Positions 994-27,194 of a DNA stretch of 64,000 nt are shown piece after piece. Made by a program: the position numbers and the translations under genes. The notes under the pieces were generated by a model. That model had not been told where the DNA came from, did not search any database, and saw only the letters and a list, made by a program, of their open reading frames with translations. Position 1 is the first letter of the stretch; every line of letters begins with the position of its first letter. The stretch lies in contig JAVLRN010000009.1 of NCBI GenBank assembly GCA_032821775.1, positions 2,418,001 through 2,482,000 of the forward strand, in the 5' to 3' direction. This DNA comes from Sanguinoderma infundibulare. Taxonomy: Eukaryota > Basidiomycota > Agaricomycetes > Polyporales > Polyporaceae.

Positions 994-3267
994 ATGAAGA
1001 GAGCCGCCGATCACCAGTTGACGAAGGAGGGTGGAGAGGACACTGATGATGAGGTTGAGGTACGTGCCACACCCGCAGGGAGTTGGTCAGTTGATGAATA
1101 CCACACCAGGAGGTCCCAAAATCTGGCTTCCAGATAGCAGACGAGTCCGTCCTTGCCACCAGACCGTGCGTACTTATAGCAATAACTCTCATGCACAACT
1201 CGTGTTGAATTCAATCCCAGAATACGAGGACTACCAAAACGTTCAGCCGCGGCTGCAAACGCGTCAAGTGCACCTACTCTCAGTGCCATCACCACCGAGG
1301 TACGTCCACCCATGCATTGTCTCGAGCCTCCTTGACCTATGCCCGCATATAGCCCGCCGCAAACAGCAAATTATCTGGTTTCCAGGGTTTTGGCACATCA
1401 ACCACCGCGTCAACTTCCTTCTTCCCGTCCTTCGCACCACCCGCTGCAGCAAAACTCGCGCCTTCATCCCAGCCATCGTCTCTCTTTGGTGGACCGTCTG
1501 TGTCGTCTTCGGCGTCTTCTGCCACCAAGGCGTTTGCCTCCATCGTTGGGTCTTCATCGTCTTCGGAACCACCTGCCGCAGCCACGATCGTCGAAGACGA
1601 CCAAAGCGAGATGGACTACTACAAAGCCCTCCGTGGCCTGAACGTGTCTTTCCTCGCTGCCGTCTCCAAAGCTATCGAGTCGGACCCGTTTGCGGATGTC
1701 GCAGAGCTGCTGGAGCGGTATAAGGCCTTGCGTATCACGGTCAAGTCAGATTTCGAAGCCAAGTCAAAGACTACGCCCAAAGCACCTTCAAGCACGTCAC
1801 TCACTGAGTCAAAACCTGCCGAGACACCAAAACCTGCACCCTCGTTCTCGATGCCTGCTCCGCCATCGAGCTTTGCTGGCTTCAAGCCGCCTGCCCCTTC
1901 GAGTACAGCGACTGCATCCCCAATACCAAGTAGCGGTTTTGTTCCCAAGATCGACACCGGCAGCAGTGGTTCATTAGGCAGCCCCTTCTCCTTCGCCTCG
2001 TCCAAACCCCGTGCTGAATCCTCCGCCACCACCGAGGCTCCCAAGTCCACGTTCTCCTTCGGCTTGCCATCCAACGCCGATCCCACAACATCCACGCCAG
2101 CCAACGCCTTCACATTCGGCGCCGCGGCCTCGTCCAGCAGCACCTCCATCTTCGGGGGCAAGCCCCCAGCGTCGACCTCCTCGACATCCCTCTTCCCCCC
2201 ATCCTCGTCTTCCTCGACTTCCCTGTTCGGTCCTTCGGCGTCTTCCTCTTCGATCTTCGGCAGCGGCTCCCCGTTCGGTGCCAAAGCCGACTCCTCCAAC
2301 GACGCCGACGACGAAACCGAACCCGAAAAGGACAAGGACAAGGACGCGAGACCGCCCGTCTCGTTCTTCGCCCCCAGCTCCGGCGCGTCAACGCCCTTCG
2401 GCGGCGCCTCCAGCTCTGGGGGCACGGGCGGAGCGACGACGCCGGAAAAGGACAAGGAGAAATCCGCCTCCGCGACCTCGTTCTCGTTCGGGTCCGCCTC
2501 GCCCGCAAAGCCCTCGCCCTTCTTATTCGGCGGCGCCGCCACCAAGGCAGGGGGCAGCATCGGGAACCCCGTCGGGTGGGGGTTCGGGAGCCCGCCCAAG
2601 ACGGACGCGGATGCGAGCACCGGGCCCGTAAAGTCCCTTCCGTTCGCGTTCACGCCGCTGAAACCGATCACTACCACGTTCGGATCCGGGCCCGGGTTCG
2701 GGTTGGCGGCGGCGGCGGTGGAAGAAGACAAGGCGGAGGGCTCATCCGGGGACGGCACTCCCGCGCTCCCGTCTAGCGACGACGCGCAACCCCCGCCGCT
2801 GCTCGCGTCTGCATCGGTGCACGACGTCGAAGGCGAGGGTGAGGAGGACGAGGAGACGACGCACGAGCTCCGCAGCAAGGTGTTCAAGATGACAAAGGAC
2901 AAGGACGGCCAGGCAAAGTGGGGCGACCTCGGCGTGGGCGTGCTCCGGCTCAAGAGGCACAAGGAGACGGACGCGCGGCGGATGCTCTTGAGGAACAGTG
3001 CCACGGGCAAGATCACGATCGTAAGCACTCGTTGATGTCCTTGGGGCTGTTGGAGAGATTACAGAGCGTGCTTGTGTGCAGAATTTCTTGATTCATGGCG
3101 GCATGAACCCTACAGCGGCCGACAAGGTCGTGTCCTTCATGGGCCACAGCGAGGGCGCGTCCACGCCATACCGGATACGCTGTAAAACCGCTGACCAGGC
3201 CAAAGAGCTCAAGGCTGCGCTCGACCGCGAGATCGAGTTGGTCAAGAGCAAAGGCTCGCACGCATGA
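994..3267 (+). CDS. NUP50: NUP50/Nup2-type FG nucleoporin with C-terminal Ran-binding domain
   Basis: Nuclear-pore basket nucleoporin that would bind importin-alpha and Ran during cargo release. Five exons read cleanly: 994-1059, 1110-1165, 1221-1299, 1353-3020 and 3082-3267, giving 684 aa. The first residues (MKRAADHQLTKE) and the segment ESVLATRPIRGLPKRS match the N-terminal NUP50 motif that contacts importin-alpha. Residues of about 70-500 are Ser/Pro/Ala-rich with scattered FG, FGxG and SxFG units. The last 130 residues form a RanBP1-like domain (ELRSKVFKM, then WGDLGVGVLRLKRHKE, then the C-terminal helix KELKAALDREIELVKSK). Joining exons 4 and 5 makes GKITINFLIHGGMNP, which fits the domain; without the splice the frame stops at once. 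Length is ordinary for a fungal family member. Highly GC-rich third positions. Confidence 0.93.
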
Positions 3268-18252: not shown

Positions 18253-18679
18253 GCAGAATGTGGGAGGAATGCACGACACGAGCGCCCCATTCCCATATGT
18301 TTGCTGCTCCACCATCCTCTGGAAAAACCTCCCCAGGCTAATTTGGTGGAAATACAACTAAAAAGTAGGAATTAATTCTAAATAAGAAGCAATAGTGAGT
18401 TAGGGAACATTAGCCTAACTGCTCCCTAAGATTAGGGAGGTCCCCTTTTTTGTTAGGGATAAAGTGGCTACAGTAGTGCTACTTTATCCCTAATGTAGTG
18501 CTAATTTACCCCTAATCCTTCCTAATTGTTCCTAATGCAGGAATACAGGTTCAGTATCTCAGAGATTTGCTGGGCTGTCCAGAACTTGTGCACACCATGT
18601 AGAAGATAGACATGATAAATGTATATTGAGCATAACTTATACATTGCAGTAGCTAAGTTCAATGTTCAAAGAGAAGTAT

Positions 18680-20035
18680 CCAATGCCCTGATCAGCGAAG
18701 AGAGGGCTCTTGACAAACATAGGGACAACAATCCCCTTCTCACCATTGAGTGCAAGGAGCAGGTCACCAGTGAAGCGAGCACCCTCCTTGGCCTGGACAA
18801 CCTTGTCACCGCCAAACTGGATGTGGTGCACAAGCTTCTTGCCATGCGGGGTCTGAGAAAGGAGAGGGATGATGGTCGCACCTGAGTGACCACCAACGAC
18901 GATGACGGGGACGTTCCTGGGGTCAGCACCAGTGATGCCGGTGAGGAAGCGCTGGGCAGACGACATCAAGGGTGGTGGATGTAAGCGGGGTCATAAACGC
19001 CGGCGTTCTCGAAGACTGCAGAGACAATGGGGACGGTGGAGTTGACAGGGTTGAAGATGACGAGGACGTGGGCCTTGGGGGACACGCGGGCGATGGCAGC
19101 ACCGAGGTCACAGACAATAGATGCATTGATGTTGAAGAGGTCGTCACGAGGCATCTGCACGATGGTGCTCAGAGTTAGAACGGGATAGGAAGAGAAGAAG
19201 GGCCCAAAGCGAGTCTTACACTGGGCTAGACGAAGAGAGGCCGAGGGTCAGCAATCAAAACTGTAGTTGGCAGGTGGGAAGCACGCATACCTTACGGGGG
19301 ACACCAGCGGGGATGATGACGACATCAGTGCCCTCGAGAGCTTGGTCGAGCTTATCGGTGGGGTAACAGTTGATCATGAATGAGATGGGGTGAGGTTACA
19401 CGTATTCAGGCAGGAGAAGGAGGAATCGCACCTCGCCCTTGCTCAGTAGAGACGGATAGGTTTGCCCATTGTCGACTTGATGTGGAGCGACTTGACATTC
19501 TGCCAGTTCTTCTTGAGCAGCAACACGAGGAAGTTGATGCCTGTGGACGATGTCAGCGTATAGCAGACGGCAGGACAGGGAGTGACATGTACTCAGCATG
19601 ACATTCGCAAGGACCTGGTCGTCAGACATCTGGATGTGTCCAACAGCGATGCCCAAACAAAGCACCTTCTTGAGCTGGAACTTGATCATCGAACGCACCT
19701 CAGTGATCTTGTTCTGCAGGTCCTCTGCGTGCGAGGCGGGTGTAGGGAACTTGCTGGCTGCAAGCACAAATGGAACGCGCCTCAGCACCCTCAACGCGCG
19801 AACTGAAGAGACGCCAACGTACCCTTGGAAAGACCGGGACCGAGCAGACAGGGCATCTGCTTGATGAGGGCCTCGGAGGCCAGGAAAGCGTCGTACTGCT
19901 TGGCGAGCTTCTTGACAAGCTCACCAATTCCTCCACCCACGCCGAGGATCGCGATCTTGGACCGGCGTGTGGCCTAGGAGGAGAACTGGCGGGTCTGAGA
20001 AGAGAGGGATGGGCGGTGGCACGGAAGAACATGGC
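18680..20035 (-). pseudogene. Malate dehydrogenase fragments in E1, with uL1 embedded
   Basis: The minus strand shows mitochondrial-type malate dehydrogenase in order: a start near 20035 (MFFRATAH), then [13 protein letters not shown] (NAD-binding glycine loop) at about 19960, CYPTDKLDQALEGTDVVIIP at about 19350, [14 protein letters not shown] and [12 protein letters not shown] (19160-18966), [20 protein letters not shown] (about 18890), and SPLFADQGI near 18690. Breaks: an in-frame stop and frameshift in the targeting region, a frameshift near 18970, and replacement of the segment between the glycine loop and the KGEV exon by ribosomal protein uL1. Intron boundaries persist, so the source was genomic DNA rather than mRNA. 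Confidence 0.82.
19442..19930 (-). pseudogene. Ribosomal protein uL1 (L10a) 3' exons captured in E1
   Basis: Reads [19 protein letters not shown] and LLGPGLSKG near 19930-19825, then FPTPASHAEDLQNKITEVRS and IKFQLKKVLCLGIAVGHIQM to LANVML (19760-19585), then [20 protein letters not shown], ending GKPIRLY and a stop at 19442-19444. This is the C-terminal half of the eukaryotic 60S protein L10a with its own introns and stop codon. It is spliced into the malate dehydrogenase fragment: the glycine-loop codon GGIGE runs straight into LVKKLAKQ in frame, forming a chimeric reading frame. Confidence 0.85.
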
Positions 20036-20131
20036 AGACGTTGTCGTTGTCGTCAGATGGTGAGGAGGGTGGGATGCCTCGGGCATGGATGCACTCGAGA
20101 GGAGAGAGACGACATGGCGAGTGGGAGGAAA

Positions 20132-20207
20132 GTTGGAAGTGTTAGACGCTCGATTCGGTGGCACGTCGCCTGTGGCGCCACTGAATCGAGCGTCTAACAC
20201 TTCCAAC
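20132..20207. repeat. Hairpin in E1 (31-bp arms, 14-nt loop)
   Basis: Left arm 20132-20162 and right arm 20177-20207 are inverted copies (one mismatch) containing GTGTTAGACGCTCGATTC. The loop at 20163-20176 is ACGTCGCCTGTGGC. Weaker pairing continues outside the arms (GAGAG and GACGA-type blocks). It separates the malate dehydrogenase block from the TATA-binding protein block. The same hairpin occurs in E2 with the loop reverse-complemented. Confidence 0.85.
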
Positions 20208-20278
20208 TCTCCTCGTCTCTCTTCCCACCCGCCCCGTCGCCATCCTCGTCCGATCGTCTTTAGAATCCCCCGCAGCCT

Positions 20279-20692
20279 GTCCTGCGTCATCTCTCCACTG
20301 CATATCCACGACCCGAAGACGACTGCGCTCATTTACGGGCAAGATGGTTGTGACGGGCGCAAAGTCCGAGGACGACTCGCGGCTTGCTTCGTGCAAGTCT
20401 AGAAGCTCGGGTTCGACGCAAAATTCTCCGAGTTCAAGATCCAGAACATCTTTGGCTCGTGCGACGTCAAGTTCCCTATTCGTCTCGAGGGTCTAGCATA
20501 CAGCCACGGACAGTTCAGTTCATATGAGCCTGAGGTGCGTTTGGTGACCCTTTCACGTCTGCTGTCATCATTGCTAAGTGAGCATCCTTTGAGCTTCTCC
20601 CTGGTTTGATCTACCGCATGATCAAGCCGAAGGTCGTACTTCTGATCTTCGTGTCCGGCAAGATTGTGTTGACTGGCGCAAAGGTAAGTTCT
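20279..20692 (+). pseudogene. TATA-binding protein fragment captured in E1
   Basis: The plus strand reads HDPKTTALI, then in another frame GKMVVTGAKSEDDSRLASCK, then [16 protein letters not shown] and [20 protein letters not shown], and after an intron [20 protein letters not shown] to VLTGAK. These are the two direct repeats of the TBP saddle, which normally binds TATA boxes in the nucleus. A frameshift after TTALI and a lost segment before KLGFD break the gene. The 5' and 3' ends are absent. Confidence 0.85.
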
Positions 20693-22644
20693 CATCCCAC
20701 CTTATGCCATTTGTCTTCTCCGGATGCAGCAGCTCCTTCCCTCTCAGCAGTCCATCCCCGAGGGCCCATCCATCAACGCTTCCTCTCTGTCGTTGCCCGC
20801 GACGTCCGATTGCCCTTCCTCGCTCTTCATGTCCTCCGCTGCTGTCTACTCGCCCTGACGCCTTCCTTCTCCATGGACCATCCCCGAGGGCCAGTCACCC
20901 GCTGCATATCCACAATGTGCGACCATCTGCAGGCAGCGGGACAACATGATGCGCAGGAGGGGGGTGACAGCGAGGCTGTGGAGGACGAAGAGGACGATAA
21001 TGAGGAGGATCGGGCGCAGGCGTGGGCGGAGATCATATGGTGGTGAGTATTTACATTCAGTCCCCTCGCCCTTGCTCTCCATCATCTGCCCGCCACCACT
21101 CCTTCCCTGAGGGCCATCAGCTGTGGCGTCCTCGTCGCCGTCGCCCTGTCCTTTTGACATTCCCGCCTGCCACCTCAGCAGACCTCTATCCGAGCAACCA
21201 TCTCAACATCCATCAATGTCTCCCCACCCCGCAGAGGACCACGCAGGTGCCGGCTGGATCCCTCGTGTGCGCAGCATGATCCAGCTCCCTTCTGTCGACA
21301 ACTACAACTTTAAACCCGCACAGGGCTACTTCGCTTACCCTCCGCTGCACTGTGCTCATTCTCCCTCCTCCCCCCTTGCCTTGCGCGTAGAAGTGTCAGC
21401 TTGTGTTCTTCTTTATCTCAATATGTGTGATCTATGCATGTTGTAGTTCATGTTTGTTGCTGTCATTACATATTGTGGTTTATGATGCCATTCCTCACTG
21501 TTGTTTGTGCTGTAAATAATGCAGAATGTGATGTCAACACACCCAATCATACCAGAGTGTTTTGATTGTCCCAATACATGAAAATAGGTCTGAAGTAGTG
21601 CAAAAGTAGTACTAAGTAGTACAACTGCTGTTCCTCTCTGAGATGATAGTGCATATTATTACAATTATAAAGATGTCCCTGCATGTTAGTACAATGTTAG
21701 TACTCAGATGGCCGAATTAGATCAAATTAGATTGATAGTAGCTCCATTAGATCATATTTGTACTAAATGCATTGAATTAGCTTGGGAGGGTTTTCCTGAT
21801 GTCATTGACATTGAAGAGGAACGGTCGACCGGTTCCATTCAACGCAGCGCTGTCATAAATCCACACCGTCAGGATATATGGGAGCTAGCCAAATCGGCGG
21901 GACGTACCCAATTTGACGGTAGTGAATAGCAGTGTTTGAGTTGCTATCACGAAACTCAAGTCTCTAGCCAACGATGGTATGCGAATAAGAAGGGACCCAC
22001 ATACTACCAGTCTCCACCGGGAGGGCTCTGTGACAAGGTCAGGATCCAGATTGATTGACCATGATTAGAAAAGATGTGCACACTGAAGAGTCGGTCCAGT
22101 TTGCCGGAACGGTGCCATCATCTGTTTTGGACGTCAATACCGTGGTCCTATGCGCGCCGTACGAGGTGACATGAAATTCACGCACTGTACTTGAGGTCTG
22201 GGAAGCCAGAATGATTCGATTAGCTCGCACTTAGAGTCCAGGGGTAAATGTGGCAGCAGCTGGACAGACTCACAGTCGAGGCCCCACTCGGCGAAAGTAT
22301 CAGCATCCAGCACTTCGACTCTAGAAAAACCTCCCCAGGCTAATTTGGTGGAAATACAACTAAAAAGTGAGAATTAGATCTAAATTAGAGGCATTAGTGA
22401 CATTAGTGACATTAGCTCTAGTTTAGACAGGTTACCCCATCTCATAGCAGGTATTAGGGATAAAGTAGCACTATAGTAGTGCTACTGTAGTGCTACTTTA
22501 GCCCTAATTCCTCCTAACAGTTGCTACACTACAGGTTCAGTATCTCAGAGATTTGCTGGCTGTCCAGAACTTGCACACACCACATAGGAGATAGACATGA
22601 AAAGTATATATTGAGTCTAACTAATACATTGGTGTAGCTAAGTT

Positions 22645-23690
22645 CAATGTTCAAGGACAAGTATTCAATGTCCTGATTAGTGAAGAGAGGGCTCTCAACA
22701 AACATAGGGACAACAATCCCCTTCTTGCCATTGAGTGCACAGAGCAGGTCGCCAGTAAAGCAAGCACCAGCGTAGGCCATGGAGAGTGTTGCAGAGCCAG
22801 TACCCTCCTTGGCTTGGACGACTGCCGAACTGGATTCAGTACACAAGCTTCTTGTAGACCTCGCCCGAGATACCCTTGCCGTGCGGGGTCTGAGAAAGGA
22901 GAGGGACGATGGACGCACCTGAGTGACCACCAACGACGGTGACGGGGATGTTCTTGGGGTCAGCACCAGCAAGGCCAGCGAGGAAGGGGTGGTGACACCG
23001 AAGATGTGAGCGGGGTCATAAACGCCGGCCTTCTCGAAGATTGCAGAGACGATGGGGACGGTGGAGTTGACGGGGTTGGAGATGACGAGGATGTGGGCCT
23101 TGGGGGAAACACGGGCGATGGCAGCAGCGAGGTCACGGACAATGGACGCGTTGGTGTTGAAGAGGTCGTGACGAGTCATCTGCACGATGGTTCTCGGAGT
23201 TAGAACGGGATACGAAGAGACGAAGGGCCGAAAGCGAGTCTTACACTAGGCTAGACGAGGAGAGGTCGAAGGTCAGCAATCGAAACTGTAGTTGGCAGTA
23301 AGGAAGCACGCATACCTTACGGGGGACACCAGCTGGGATGATGACGACGTCAGTGCCCTCAAGAGCTTGGTCGAGCTTGTCGCCGGGGTAACCGTTGACC
23401 TTGAATGGGATGGAGTGAAGTTACACGTGTAGCAGGCAGGAGGAGGAAGCGCACCTCGCTCTTGGTATTGATGTGAGAGACATCAGCAGCAACACCCGGA
23501 GCACCTGGATATCGTAAAGGGAAAGCTCGGTGACCAACGGGTTGAGCTTGAGTAGGAGGGACAAGGGCTGGCCAATTCCTCCGCCCGCGCCGAGGACCGC
23601 GACTTGGGCTTGCGTGCGGCCGAGAAGGAGAAGTGGCGAGTCTGAGAAGAGAGGGAACGGGCGGCGGCACGGAAGAACATGGCAGACGTC
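22645..23690 (-). pseudogene. Malate dehydrogenase pseudogene in E2
   Basis: More complete than the E1 copy. The N-terminus ([20 protein letters not shown]) is near 23680, the glycine loop [19 protein letters not shown] near 23600, then [18 protein letters not shown], a DVVIIPAGVPRK-type exon, TRHDLFNTNASIVRDLAAA with [18 protein letters not shown] (23185-23000), then the C-terminal part to ESPLFTNQDIEYLSLNIELS near 22650. Single-base losses at about 23605 (after the Lys-Pro codons) and at about 23515 (LYDI-GAPG) shift the frame, and part of the middle is missing. The mitochondrial targeting sequence is recognisable. No uL1 segment is present, unlike E1. Confidence 0.83.
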
Positions 23691-23905
23691 GTCATCGTCA
23701 GACGGTGAGGAGTGGTAAAGATGGCGAGCGGAAGGGAAAAGGTGTGCGTAGCGATGTGCCCGTCAAAGCCCGTGTTTTGAGGCTGGGCTCGGAGCACGTC
23801 GGGACTCGGTGAGGGTGGAGAACTCAGACGCCTGGAGGAGGCGAGGGGGGAGAGTGAGGGATGAGGACGGAATGGGCGACGACGAAAGAGGGGAGAAGGA
23901 CTAAC

Positions 23906-24130
23906 CTTCTTCATGATGCCCTCCTTTCGTTTTGCGAAGGTGATATGACGTCTGGACATGTCCTGGATGAACTGGATCTTGATCTTCCTGCGGCCGGCTT
24001 TCTTGTCCGCCTTTGGCTTGTCCTCGTCGTCGTCATCGTCCTGGCCGCTCTCGCCGGGGTTGGGATCGTGGGCGAAGCCGTGGTCGATGGAGACGGCCTG
24101 GTCGAGTTCGTGGCGACAGCATTTGTTGGA
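23906..24130 (-). pseudogene. MADS-box exon captured in E2
   Basis: The minus strand reads an acidic stretch (DDDDDEDKPKADKK) followed by AGRRKIKIQFIQDMSRRHIT and FAKRKEGIMKK, then a donor GTTAGT. This is the first half of an SRF/Mcm1-type MADS DNA-binding domain, a nuclear transcription factor. The rest of the domain and gene do not follow; malate dehydrogenase sequence comes next. It is a single captured exon with its own 5' splice site. Confidence 0.85.
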
Positions 24131-24177
24131 CAAAATGGGGGACGCCTGGGGGGCGAGCTGCGATGCTTCGGGCGTGG

Positions 24178-24352
24178 TAACGAGGGATGCACTCGAGAGG
24201 AGAGGCGACGTGGTGAGTGAGAGGAGAGGCCGAAGTGTTAGACGCTCGATTTGGTGGCGCCACAGGCGACGTGCCACCGAATCGAGCGTCTAAGACTTCA
24301 GCCTCTCCTCCCACTCGCCACGTCGCCTCTCCTCTCGAGCGCATCCCTCGTC
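24178..24352. repeat. Long hairpin in E2 (about 80-bp arms, 14-nt loop)
   Basis: The left arm (24178-24258) runs from CGAGGGATGCACTCGAGAGG to the GTGTTAGACGCTCGATT core. The right arm (24273-24352) is its inverted copy with a few mismatches. The loop 24259-24272 is GCCACAGGCGACGT, the exact reverse complement of the E1 loop. It lies between the MADS-box/malate dehydrogenase cargo and the CBM1 cargo. Confidence 0.85.
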
Positions 24353-24579
24353 ATCAGATCCCATCCGCCCGCGCCCATGTCTCCTGTACCTCCTCGCATA
24401 GGCTCAGCTCCTCTCAGCACTTCCCCTCCATCCCCCTGGCCCCGCTGCCGAGTGCAACGTCTAGTCGCGTGTCCCCGCTCCAGAAGCATAGATGCGGGCT
24501 ACAACGGAGCTCTGTCCAGTCCAGGCGCACCTCCTCCCGCCAAGCGGCCCCGTTGAATCGCGCTGTCCTTCGGAGGACG

Positions 24580-25500
24580 TATATAAGCTCGCGCATCTGC
24601 CTCCTCGGTGCGTTCATCGACGTTTTGTGCACTTTAGCCTAGTACTGCCAGCGACCGGTGACCTCTGACAACATGCTCTACAGCGTCCTCGTTGCCCTCA
24701 GCTTTTTCCTCCTCGTTGTGCGCGTCTCCGCCCAGGCTCCTGTCTGGGGGCAGTGTGGTGGTGTGGGTTGGTGAGTGGGTAGTCCAACCTCTAGAATTTT
24801 CGACTCCGGTGCACATTGCACCAGCGTTCCTTCGCCAATCAGGCAGTCGCTTGTCGAGCACTCTTCTGTTTGGTAGTACAACATGTCTAACAAGGCAGTA
24901 CAGGACTGGAAGCACGACCTGCGCTGCAGGGTCAGTCTGTACGGTGCTCAATGACTGTGCGTATCAATCTGTTATGTGCAGGCTGCGCACGGCCGGGAAC
25001 GATGGCTGGCCTTCGTATTGAACCTTGTGCACAGATTACTCGCAGTGTGTTCCAGGGACGGGAGTGACGAGCACCGTCCCGAGCACCAGCACCAGACCTA
25101 CCACAACGGTCACGGTCCCGCAGTCACCCAGCACAACGTCGAGTGGTGCAACGCCCAGTGGGTCCCAAATCTGCGCTGTGAAGGCTCTTGTGTACCACTT
25201 CTACCTGCAAAACAATGGTGCGTCATCTGCGTTGTCCCCTCTACCCGGTCGCGGTCTCTGCGCGCAGACGCAGAGGCAGCGATCAAATTTCATGGATTGG
25301 AAGAGCGAAGCGAAGCTGACAGTCACTCCTATTCTCGCCCGTAGGTGGGAAGCCGATGCTGGGCCCTGAGGCGTTGTCAGGGTACTTCACGATCGGGAGC
25401 ACGATCTCGCTCGCCGGCGCGGACGGCAGCACGCTCTACGTCAACCTGAACGCGAGCGCGGTGGCCTCGTACAAGCCGCTCACTCTCGACGGGAAGCCAC
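24580..25500 (+). CDS. 5' half of a CBM1 secreted protein with promoter, carried by E2
   Basis: A TATA box (TATATAAG at 24580) lies 93 bp upstream of the ATG at 24673. The protein begins with a signal peptide (MLYSVLVALSFFLLVVRVSA), then a fungal cellulose-binding CBM1: QAPVWGQCGGVGW, then TGSTTCAAGSVCTVLN, then DYYSQCVPG, spread over three exons with clean phases. A Ser/Thr/Pro linker follows, then the start of a further domain (ICAVKALVYHFYLQNNGGKP to YFTIGSTISL and LYVNLNASAVASYKPLTLDG) that I cannot name. The frame is open through at least four introns, then the sequence jumps to Zn2Cys6-like pieces near 25500. The captured part could still be expressed as a truncated secreted cellulose-binding protein. 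Confidence 0.75.
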
Positions 25501-25880
25501 GGTGCGACCGCTATCGTTTAAATAATCTCAAGGTGTGTCACCTCCACCGCGTGATTCCCCCGCTTCTCGTGTGCCCCTAGTGTGACCGAGTGCTGCCAAC
25601 ACGCAGTCACTGTTCGTGAGCTGCCGGACGAGAATGCAAGTACACCCCGCTGCCCACTCCCGCTCACCGCGGTATTCCGAGGTGCGATAGATGTCGACTG
25701 AAGAACCTCAAGGTACGTGCCCTTTGTTCCTCTCCTTTCTCCCGTATCCCCATTTGTTGCCCCGAAAGCGCGACCGAAATCTGCCTGTGTGCAATCACTG
25801 CACAGAAGACAACGAACCGGATTGCAACTACACCCCAAAGAAGCAGCACAAGGTCCCTACCAACCATGGACCACAGATCA
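25497..25880 (+). pseudogene. Zn2Cys6 transcription-factor fragments in E2 (duplicated)
   Basis: RCDRYRLNNLKV at about 25500 and RCDRCRLKNLKV at about 25680 are two copies of the first half of a Zn2Cys6 cluster. The second half appears as CKYTPLP at about 25640 and as NLPVCNHCTEDNEPDCNYTP at about 25780. Fungal transcription factors with this cluster bind CGG sites. The first copy has lost one Cys (RYR for RCR), and the pieces are separated by intron-like stretches. An unresolved tail continues to about 26200. The fragments follow the CBM1 cargo without a gap. Confidence 0.65.
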
Positions 25881-27194
25881 ATCGGCCTGTGATGCCCTAT
25901 GCCACTCCCGCGCGACGCGTTCTGCGACCGTGAAGATGACCGTTGCCGCGCCAGGCGGTACAGTCTTTCAGTACGTCTCCCTTCACCTGCTATGCCTGAA
26001 CATGAGTTTTTGCTGCAAGTTGACCGCTGGTTCCCCAACTCCAGCATATGTTTCAAATGGCCACGCCCCCGACCACTCACCTCAGCTCGTAGTCCATGCT
26101 CCTGCTGCCGCCGCTCTCCACCCCCATTACCAGCAGTACCCGCGCGTGGACGGTCCTCCCGGGTGTGACTATCACCTCAGGGTGTCAACGCTTCACCCGG
26201 TTTCTCTGTAGCTACAACAATGTATTAGTTAGACTCAATATATACTTTTCATGTCTATCTCCTATGTGGTGTGCGCAAGTTCTGGACAGCCAGCAAATCT
26301 CAGATACTGAACCTGTAGTGTAGCAACTGTTAGGAGGAATTAGGGCTAAAGTAGCACTACAGTAGCACTACTATAGTGCTACTTTATCCCTAATACCTGC
26401 TATGAGATGGGGTAACCTGTCTAAACTAGAGCTAATGTCACTAATGTCACTAATGCCACTAATTTAGAACTAATTCCTACTTTTTAGTTGTATTTCCACC
26501 AAATTAGCTTGGGAGGGTTTTCCTGATGTCGTTTCTGAGAGAACCAGGCAAACAGCCATCGCAAGGGCCTCCGGCATTAGCGACTACTCCCAACTTGAGG
26601 CCGATGCCGTGCACTTGGTCAGCGAGATAGCCAATTGCATTCGGGAACTTGCTCAGATTGGGCACGAGCTGACCCGTGAATTCATTTCTAACTGTGAGCG
26701 CCCAGGTTGCCTATAAGTATAATGCGGTTTGGCGTTAACATGCAAGGTCTTAGAGGGCGGGAGCGCATACATCGTCAATGATGATGTACTGGTAGCCTGC
26801 ATCGGCAAGCCCAAGAGAGATGGTGTGGTTTGCAGCATCAAGGACATTGGCTTCATTGCTGTCTATGTAGGAATGACTGTTAGGTCAGGTACATGGAGAC
26901 AATGTGCGGGAGCATACACACTGGTAATATAGGCATTCCAGGAGTTCCAGCTATTCAGACTTCAGTCAGCTTCCTGCGTTTCACAAGTCGAACAAAGGGG
27001 ATGTCTCACCCGAGGGCAGGAAGCCTTCTCACATCATGGGATGGACCAATGGTAGGAGCTGAAGCTGCAATACCCGTGAGGGTAGGGCTTGGGGTTGAAG
27101 CGGCGATGGTAGGAATCGCAGTGCTTGGCAGCGTTACAGAGGCAAGAAGCCCTCTGAGAAGGTAGACACGGAGAGGTTGTTGAAAGATATACAT

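Follow-up and report, generated by a model that had tools for sequence, protein, structure and literature searches.

Pack-type elements of the Plavaka lineage carry layered host-gene fragments in Sanguinoderma infundibulare

A 64,000-nucleotide stretch of the genome of the basidiomycete Sanguinoderma infundibulare (the window, G000:C9:2418001-2482000) carries two elements, E1 and E2, that are separate non-autonomous transposons loaded with fragments of host genes. They are members of a family that comprises at least about 50 non-autonomous elements of the cut-and-paste kind. These are of the Pack type and of the Plavaka lineage and are not Mutator-like elements (MULEs), given the 2-bp target duplications, the PF18759 domain in same-ended elements and the terminal motif TGATG. 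In all probability, the family is moved by a Plavaka transposase and grows by ectopic gap filling, such that host fragments accumulate in nested layers. Because the captures are stacked in order, the donors are still in the genome and an insert-free relative exists, a single genome suffices to follow the capture step base by base. The assembly comprises 48.9 Mb in 87 contigs, labelled C1, C2 and so on, and fetched loci are L-numbered; the window lies on C9, and positions given without a contig are those of the window.

Elements, ends and the transposase partner

E1 is a Pack element of 3485 bp (18317..21801, plus strand, CTCTGG...CCTGATG) that runs CTCTGGAAAAACC ... GGTTTTCCTGATG and is flanked by the target duplication TC on its left (18315..18316) and right (21802..21803). 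Two more full-length copies are 97.5-99% identical to it. E2 is a Pack element of 4210 bp (22319..26528, plus strand, CTCTAG...CCTGATG) with the flanks GA and TC, and hence no clean 2-bp duplication; its duplication may be TCG plus one more base, a reading hinted at by a one-residue gap where the joined sequence aligns with one of two displayed GH27 homologues. An earlier note on this DNA had placed both elements correctly to within 1-2 bases, and the terminal region of ~320 bp that it described as common to them is present. The left, L-type regions of E1 (18317..18660, plus strand; the first 345 bp of E1 lack CpG) and E2 (22319..22640, plus strand) are ~76% identical, and in E2 the L region recurs as an inverted copy at the right end (26209..26528, minus strand; 318 bp, 96%), still capped by TGATG. 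E1, in contrast, has a distinct R-type region of ~320 bp on its right (21480..21801, plus strand). Therefore, only about the outermost 26 bases of E1 form an inverted repeat, short and imperfect, and the long terminal inverted repeats proposed for it are not borne out. Both elements interrupt one decayed minus-strand gene and lie 517 bp apart, close to the 500 bp first estimated. The host sequence across the E2 site matches Melibiase_2 (E 4.2e-12), which identifies the gene, including the interval between the elements (21804..22318, minus strand), as one for a GH27 alpha-galactosidase, the enzyme that had been named; the segment across the E1 site has no match in PDB or Pfam.

The genome was searched with a 21-base L pattern (up to 3 mismatches) and a 25-base R pattern, the end pair being CTCTGGAAAAACC...TTTTCCTGATG, and with the reversed patterns as controls. 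There are 74 L ends and 71 R ends, and 0 and 0 matches to the controls. The earlier note had proposed such a search and had allowed for these ends occurring nowhere else; dozens of further copies were found instead. A correctly oriented R end lies within 6 kb of 53 of the 74 L ends, at 2665-5111 bp (median 3739), two of the 53, both on C12, using one common R end. Ten other L ends are paired at 6-30 kb, and 11 L ends and 11 R ends are unpaired. Approximately 1.3 kb past the end of the window, a further Pack element (L036, C9:2483272-2488365) carries different cargo and is 99% identical to L037 on C7.

Target duplications were counted in 37 copies, namely 35 fetched Pack copies and two transposase elements, leaving out the partial or truncated L016, L023, L036, L038, L039, L040 and L046. 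A 2-bp duplication is present in 33 of the 37 (shuffles: mean 3.8, maximum 12), and none of the 37 matches at 3 bp; L021 matches at 5 bp too, and its flanks are purine-rich. Every one of the 35 copies listed has one extremity of the CTCT kind and one of the CATCA kind (CATCT in L048), the right terminus being TGATG (AGATG in L048). The subterminal regions of E2, L020-L022, L024-L026 and L028 are both L-type, yet one CTCT and one CATCA extremity are kept, which suggests that asymmetric ends are required.

A profile search of the genome with PF18759 gave 40 matching stretches, 39 of them above cut-off, and two elements with the ends and duplications of the family enclose such a stretch, providing the transposase-bearing relatives that the earlier note had advised looking for. 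The first (C2:730758-742807) has its L end at 730758, PF18759 at 737184-738184 and its R end at 742807, with the duplication GC/GC. The second (C16:250779-273553, L049) has its R end at 250779, PF18759 at 254686-255685 and, beyond a long insert, its L end at 273553, with the duplication CC/CC. The transposase exon of the C16 element matches PF18759 (Plavaka) with an E of 1.5e-85, and PF18759 is found in each of the 120 relatives listed of 354, the named ones being Agaricomycetes (Mycena, Marasmius and Phanerochaete among them). Given the common ends and duplication length, the Plavaka-type transposase of these elements would be what moves the Packs.

Other candidates for an autonomous element were rejected. 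The 15-kb copy L009/L010 (C4:3182458-3197605) is E1 with a nested retrotransposon, which has long terminal repeats (LTRs) of 990 bp, a 4-bp duplication GCGT and frames that are Gypsy-like by eye. The frames of L038 and L046 are LTR-retrotransposon-like by eye, L040 has sequence in common with the LTR element of L009, and L039 has no transposase-like frame by eye. The genome-wide PF18759 search gave no match in the fetched stretches of these four.

PlavakaB DNA transposons, of the CMCT clade and found in Agaricomycotina, are described in the available part of Kojima 2025 (PMC12730594) with 2- or 3-bp duplications, the termini 5'-CATCA..TGATG-3' and TET/JBP cargo. The duplication length and the PF18759 domain of the present family fit this description, as does TGATG at one end, and CTCT stands in place of CATCA at the other. 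The earlier statement that the terminus lacks a well-described fungal counterpart is corrected by the right end, which is that of the published PlavakaB; the difference is confined to the left end. CACTA/EnSpm elements, to which the same part of that paper assigns a 3-bp duplication and CAC..GTG ends (PMC12730594), are ruled out by the 2-bp duplication and by ends that are not CAC..GTG.

Cargo, donors and the order of capture

Donors were searched for five elements, E1, E2, L048, L028 and L037; in each E1 and E2 search, 40 of 85-88 candidates were scored. E1 carries a malate dehydrogenase (MDH) gene in two minus-strand fragments, a (18652..19441; donor C3:885061-886261, L056, of mitochondrial type by eye) and b (19914..20072), with a fragment for ribosomal protein uL1 inside it (19441..19921, minus strand; donor C12:591560-592040, 95%). 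On the plus strand are a fragment for the TATA-binding protein, TBP (20299..20730; donor C5:2973393-2973842), and two joined pieces for an HSF-type transcription factor (21189..21401; donor C3:1465917-1466066 and 1466498-1466563). E2 carries an MDH fragment (22637..23807, minus strand) with the same donor breakpoint as in E1, so the two probably represent one capture, and a fragment for a MADS/SRF factor (23807..24144, minus strand; donor C7:2746450-2746787). The remaining E2 cargo is on the plus strand and in layers. A CBM1 protein gene fragment is innermost (24637..25491; donor C9:1247856-1248721, 97%), between an upstream piece (24554..24638; donor C9:715078-715161) and a further piece (25491..25905; donor C9:714486-714900, 96%) of a Zn2Cys6-like gene, and these lie between the left (24355..24552; family copy C3:43476) and right (25924..26143) parts of an outer repeat layer.

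The fragments retain introns and, in places, upstream sequence. Pfam supports MDH, Ribosomal_L1, TBP and SRF-TF, as well as CBM_1 on a peptide spliced by eye; Zn_clus scores 18.6, below the 21-bit cut-off, and the HSF-type piece, without a Pfam match, was named from protein relatives. For one donor protein, the nearest relatives with a name come from Dichomitus squalens and Ganoderma leucocontextum, each at 87%, and place the fungus most likely in Polyporales. The comparison with parental genes that the earlier note had recommended thus located donors on C3, C12, C5, C7 and C9, which confirms all six genes that it had named (MDH, uL1/L10a, TBP, MADS, CBM1 and Zn2Cys6) and adds the HSF-type gene as a seventh. 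The seven donor genes are unlinked or distant, on other contigs or more than 1 Mb off on C9, such that the fragments do not recur in the same order outside the elements. No element ends were found at these seven donors or at the repeat copy L058; among nine fetched loci, only the E2-like L057 had them. L048, L028 and L037 likewise each match several separate loci, and across the elements searched the matches to donors end sharply.

The halves of the outer repeat (24355-24552 and 25924-26143) belong to a dispersed sequence with other copies on C3, C4, C5, C18 and C56, away from the listed ends. The Zn2Cys6 donor upstream piece contains a TATATAAG box (24580-24587), by eye ~90 bp before the start codon of the captured CBM1 gene, and a promoter-gene fusion of the two is possible. 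Positions 1566-3091 of the L028 query (C10:308.6-310.1 kb) are a nested 1.5-kb repeat with inverted ends of ~76 bp, found at 95-100% identity at 7 other places, that is probably a separate young DNA transposon family.

Nearly all differences between copies are transitions, most of them at CpG. Pairwise, the three E1-type copies have 86, 38 and 82 differences over 3485 bases, of which 74, 36 and 64 are at CpG, with zero transversions and no change of length (one copy after leaving out its nested LTR element). Seven other copy pairs have 18-119 transitions each, mostly at CpG, and 1-4 transversions each. In the terminal 320 bp, the CpG observed/expected ratios are 0.04 and 0.05, versus 0.77 inside (34 elements), and the three E1-type copies are identical at their ends, where CpG is almost absent. 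The cargo has therefore been eroded by a CpG transition process, which may stem from cytosine methylation. CpG-biased hypermutation is already known in basidiomycetes.

Captures lie within captures in several elements. In E2, the CBM1 fragment is within the Zn2Cys6-like piece, itself within the dispersed repeat, and in E1 the uL1 fragment is within MDH. In L037, 815 bp of C1:2854383-2855197 (99%) are innermost, within sequence of C6:2039285-2040127 (94-96%), which in turn is enclosed by sequence of C2:3978560-3979343 (84-87%, and 94% for an additional 36-bp piece). The C6 donor and a related element on C4 are both continuous across the insertion point of the C1 piece, where ~2 bases of C6 sequence were lost in L037. 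The C1 piece is therefore younger than the C6 piece and entered one of the two related copies. Transversions fall inward in E2, from 21/411 in the repeat to 5/499 in the Zn2Cys6-like gene and 0/855 in CBM1 (Fisher P 2e-4 and 0.007). At the displayed junctions of E1 and E2, the pieces abut with ~1-3 bases in common (by eye) and with no element-end sequence between them.

An account that joins these results begins with ends that would be recognised by a Plavaka (PlavakaB-like) transposase from the rarer elements that have the same ends. A break inside an element would be closed by copying in a stretch of DNA from another locus, introns included, using ~1-3 bp of microhomology; break repair, by template switching or filler insertion, would thus be the capture step. 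Later breaks in the filled-in piece would take up further fragments, with the youngest innermost, and the composite would then be multiplied by transposition.

The best surviving alternative, although improbable, is neighbour mobilisation, in which two nearby elements are excised as a composite with the host DNA between them and then trimmed. It is described for plant Pack-CACTA elements in the accessible portions of PMC8903248 and PMC13317346, and E1 and E2, 517 bp apart in one gene, have exactly the arrangement that it needs. Against it stand the captured pieces within captured pieces, the loss of ~2 bases at the insertion in L037, the junctions without element-end sequence and the distance of the E1 and E2 donors, which are on different contigs or more than 1 Mb along C9. 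The nesting and the inward fall of transversions speak for breaks inside elements being filled again and again rather than for neighbour pairs being mobilised.

A Mutator-type origin is highly improbable. The long subterminal repeats of E2-type copies and the multi-gene cargo do resemble plant Pack-MULEs, and plant Pack elements keep introns. The comparison with Pack-MULEs in the earlier note therefore stands for the Pack-type structure, the several genes and the retained introns. Its Mutator part does not, given that MULEs produce 9-11 bp target duplications, the duplications here are 2 bp long and same-ended elements enclose PF18759 (no search with a MULE profile was made). Rolling-circle capture of the Helitron kind, by which basidiomycete elements such as those of Pleurotus reportedly acquire genes, is contradicted by the inverted terminal motifs and the 2-bp duplications, since Helitrons have neither inverted ends nor target duplications, and is scarcely credible. 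Equally so is the idea that segmental duplications came together by chance next to unrelated repeats, with no transposon, in view of three full-length E1 copies on three contigs (3485 bp without the nested LTR element), the 53 L ends paired within 6 kb and the 2-bp duplications.

Several points weigh against gap filling by Plavaka-mobilised elements. Transposition and capture are deduced from sequence comparison, and the reading of the transposase elements covered the ends of the C2 element and part of the C16 element. The left terminus is CTCT as opposed to the published CATCA of PlavakaB, and four of the 37 copies (L011, L017, L044 and E2) lack a clean 2-bp duplication. The uL1-to-MDH edge is not cleanly resolved, and the transversions in E1, 3/481 in uL1 versus 15/946 in MDH, follow the same trend as in E2 without significance (P 0.14). 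The divergence of the repeat layer in E2 was measured against another copy of the repeat family, which may or may not be the donor, and all such divergence figures are also affected by CpG mutation and by unequal constraint on the donors.

Outward-facing cargo and the central palindrome

In each of the 11 captures whose orientation the gene reveals, the cargo faces outward (11 of 11; binomial two-sided ~0.001). MDH, uL1, MADS, Sugar_tr, TCP1 and Tudor-knot lie left of centre on the minus strand, and TBP, HSF, Zn2Cys6-like, CBM1 and Sec61 lie right of centre on the plus strand; the Zn_clus match, like those of Sec61 and TCP1 in L020, scores under the Pfam cut-off. Of 40 extra frames, 6 received a gene name from Pfam. 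The Sec61 piece of L048 was left out as ambiguous, given that L048 has no complete palindrome; it is on the minus strand and astride the midpoint if the midpoint is taken as the centre. Base composition has the same symmetry, with a G-rich left and a C-rich right in 34 of 34 elements versus 15 of 206 overlapping host windows, although elements of common ancestry are not 34 independent events; as background, long reading frames of the window are C-rich in 30 of 36 cases. A codon-score orientation, with 68 outward versus 3 inward frames in 18 elements, was not used as independent proof. Block-shuffled sequences retain the outward bias (35-48 outward versus 0-2 inward in six shuffles), so this count mostly measures base skew.

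The centre is marked by a palindrome, at 20099..20214 in E1 and 24175..24356 in E2, the latter with 84-bp arms. In 31 elements it forms an inverted repeat whose arms measure 18-85 bp, with the core GTCTTAGACGCTCGATTCGGTGGC, and at least one recognisable arm is present in 35 of 41 element sequences. Genome-wide, the arm gives 98 matches (control 0) at 57 sites, 41 of them with both arms. The palindrome is found in 43 of the 53 short L-R pairs; its position, as a fraction of the length counted from the L end, is 0.536 +/- 0.053 (range 0.40-0.72). Of 11 sites outside paired elements, 7 have an end no more than 2.3 kb away, and the other 4 are far from any. The palindrome pattern search found none in either transposase element (C2, C16).

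As a structured RNA, the palindrome was rejected: 12 Rfam matches, mostly to microRNA-like hairpins with E down to 6e-5, all fall short of the gathering score. Changes in the arms, scored in 30 of the 31 elements, affect both arms in 10 cases versus one arm in 95, and this rarity of paired changes gives no sign of maintained base pairing. The palindrome may reflect common descent rather than function. It is conceivable, but tentative, that it is a working part, in the role of a bidirectional promoter with transcripts running outward or in that of a fragile site that starts capture on both sides. If it were a promoter, only sense-facing captures of essential genes would survive; if it were a fragile site, breaks would start capture in a fixed strand polarity. 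In either case, the transposon would add host-gene pieces as an ordered, outward-facing and datable stack.

Relation to known systems

How transposons with terminal inverted repeats pick up host genes is disputed, with gap filling, fork switching and neighbour mobilisation put forward in the parts available of PMC8277862, PMC8903248 and PMC13317346. The present elements are Pack-TYPE in being non-autonomous and holding host-gene fragments between transposon ends, and they share with plant Pack-CACTA and Pack-MULE elements, as excerpted from PMC8903248 and PMC13317346, the presence of several host loci per element. Unlike these, they are fungal, Plavaka-linked and built by nested, stepwise capture with an insert-free relative; the excerpts make no mention of outward cargo around a conserved palindrome in plants (PMC8903248, PMC13317346). 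If outward facing and the central palindrome hold for independent captures, they would place new constraints on any model of capture. Metazoan Pack-TIRs, in the sections of PMC8277862 at hand, have the same gap-filling signature and few-base microhomology, but are mostly single-copy with nearby donors, whereas here the families are multicopy and the donors distant.

Among fungi, the ascomycete hAT elements that transduplicate histone H3 are also DNA transposons with host cargo, but according to partial texts (PMC6710886, PMC3538342) they carry one host gene and make an 8-bp duplication; here there are dozens of elements, with several donors in each of the five searched. Fungal gene capture among the matches listed in the open-access literature, judged by titles and the starts of abstracts and with subscription papers outside the scope, consists of this transduplication and of Helitrons, with none by Plavaka. 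Pleurotus Helitrons reportedly capture host genes, in a basidiomycete as here, but belong to the rolling-circle class. The closest likeness in machinery is to PlavakaB, as far as the available part of PMC12730594 describes it, the common points being the Plavaka transposase that the partner elements carry, the duplications of 2 bp and TGATG at one end. The present elements differ in their CTCT left end, in being non-autonomous and in carrying host-gene pieces, in most around a central palindrome, in place of TET/JBP cargo. In short, this family links Pack behaviour with fungi and with the Plavaka lineage.

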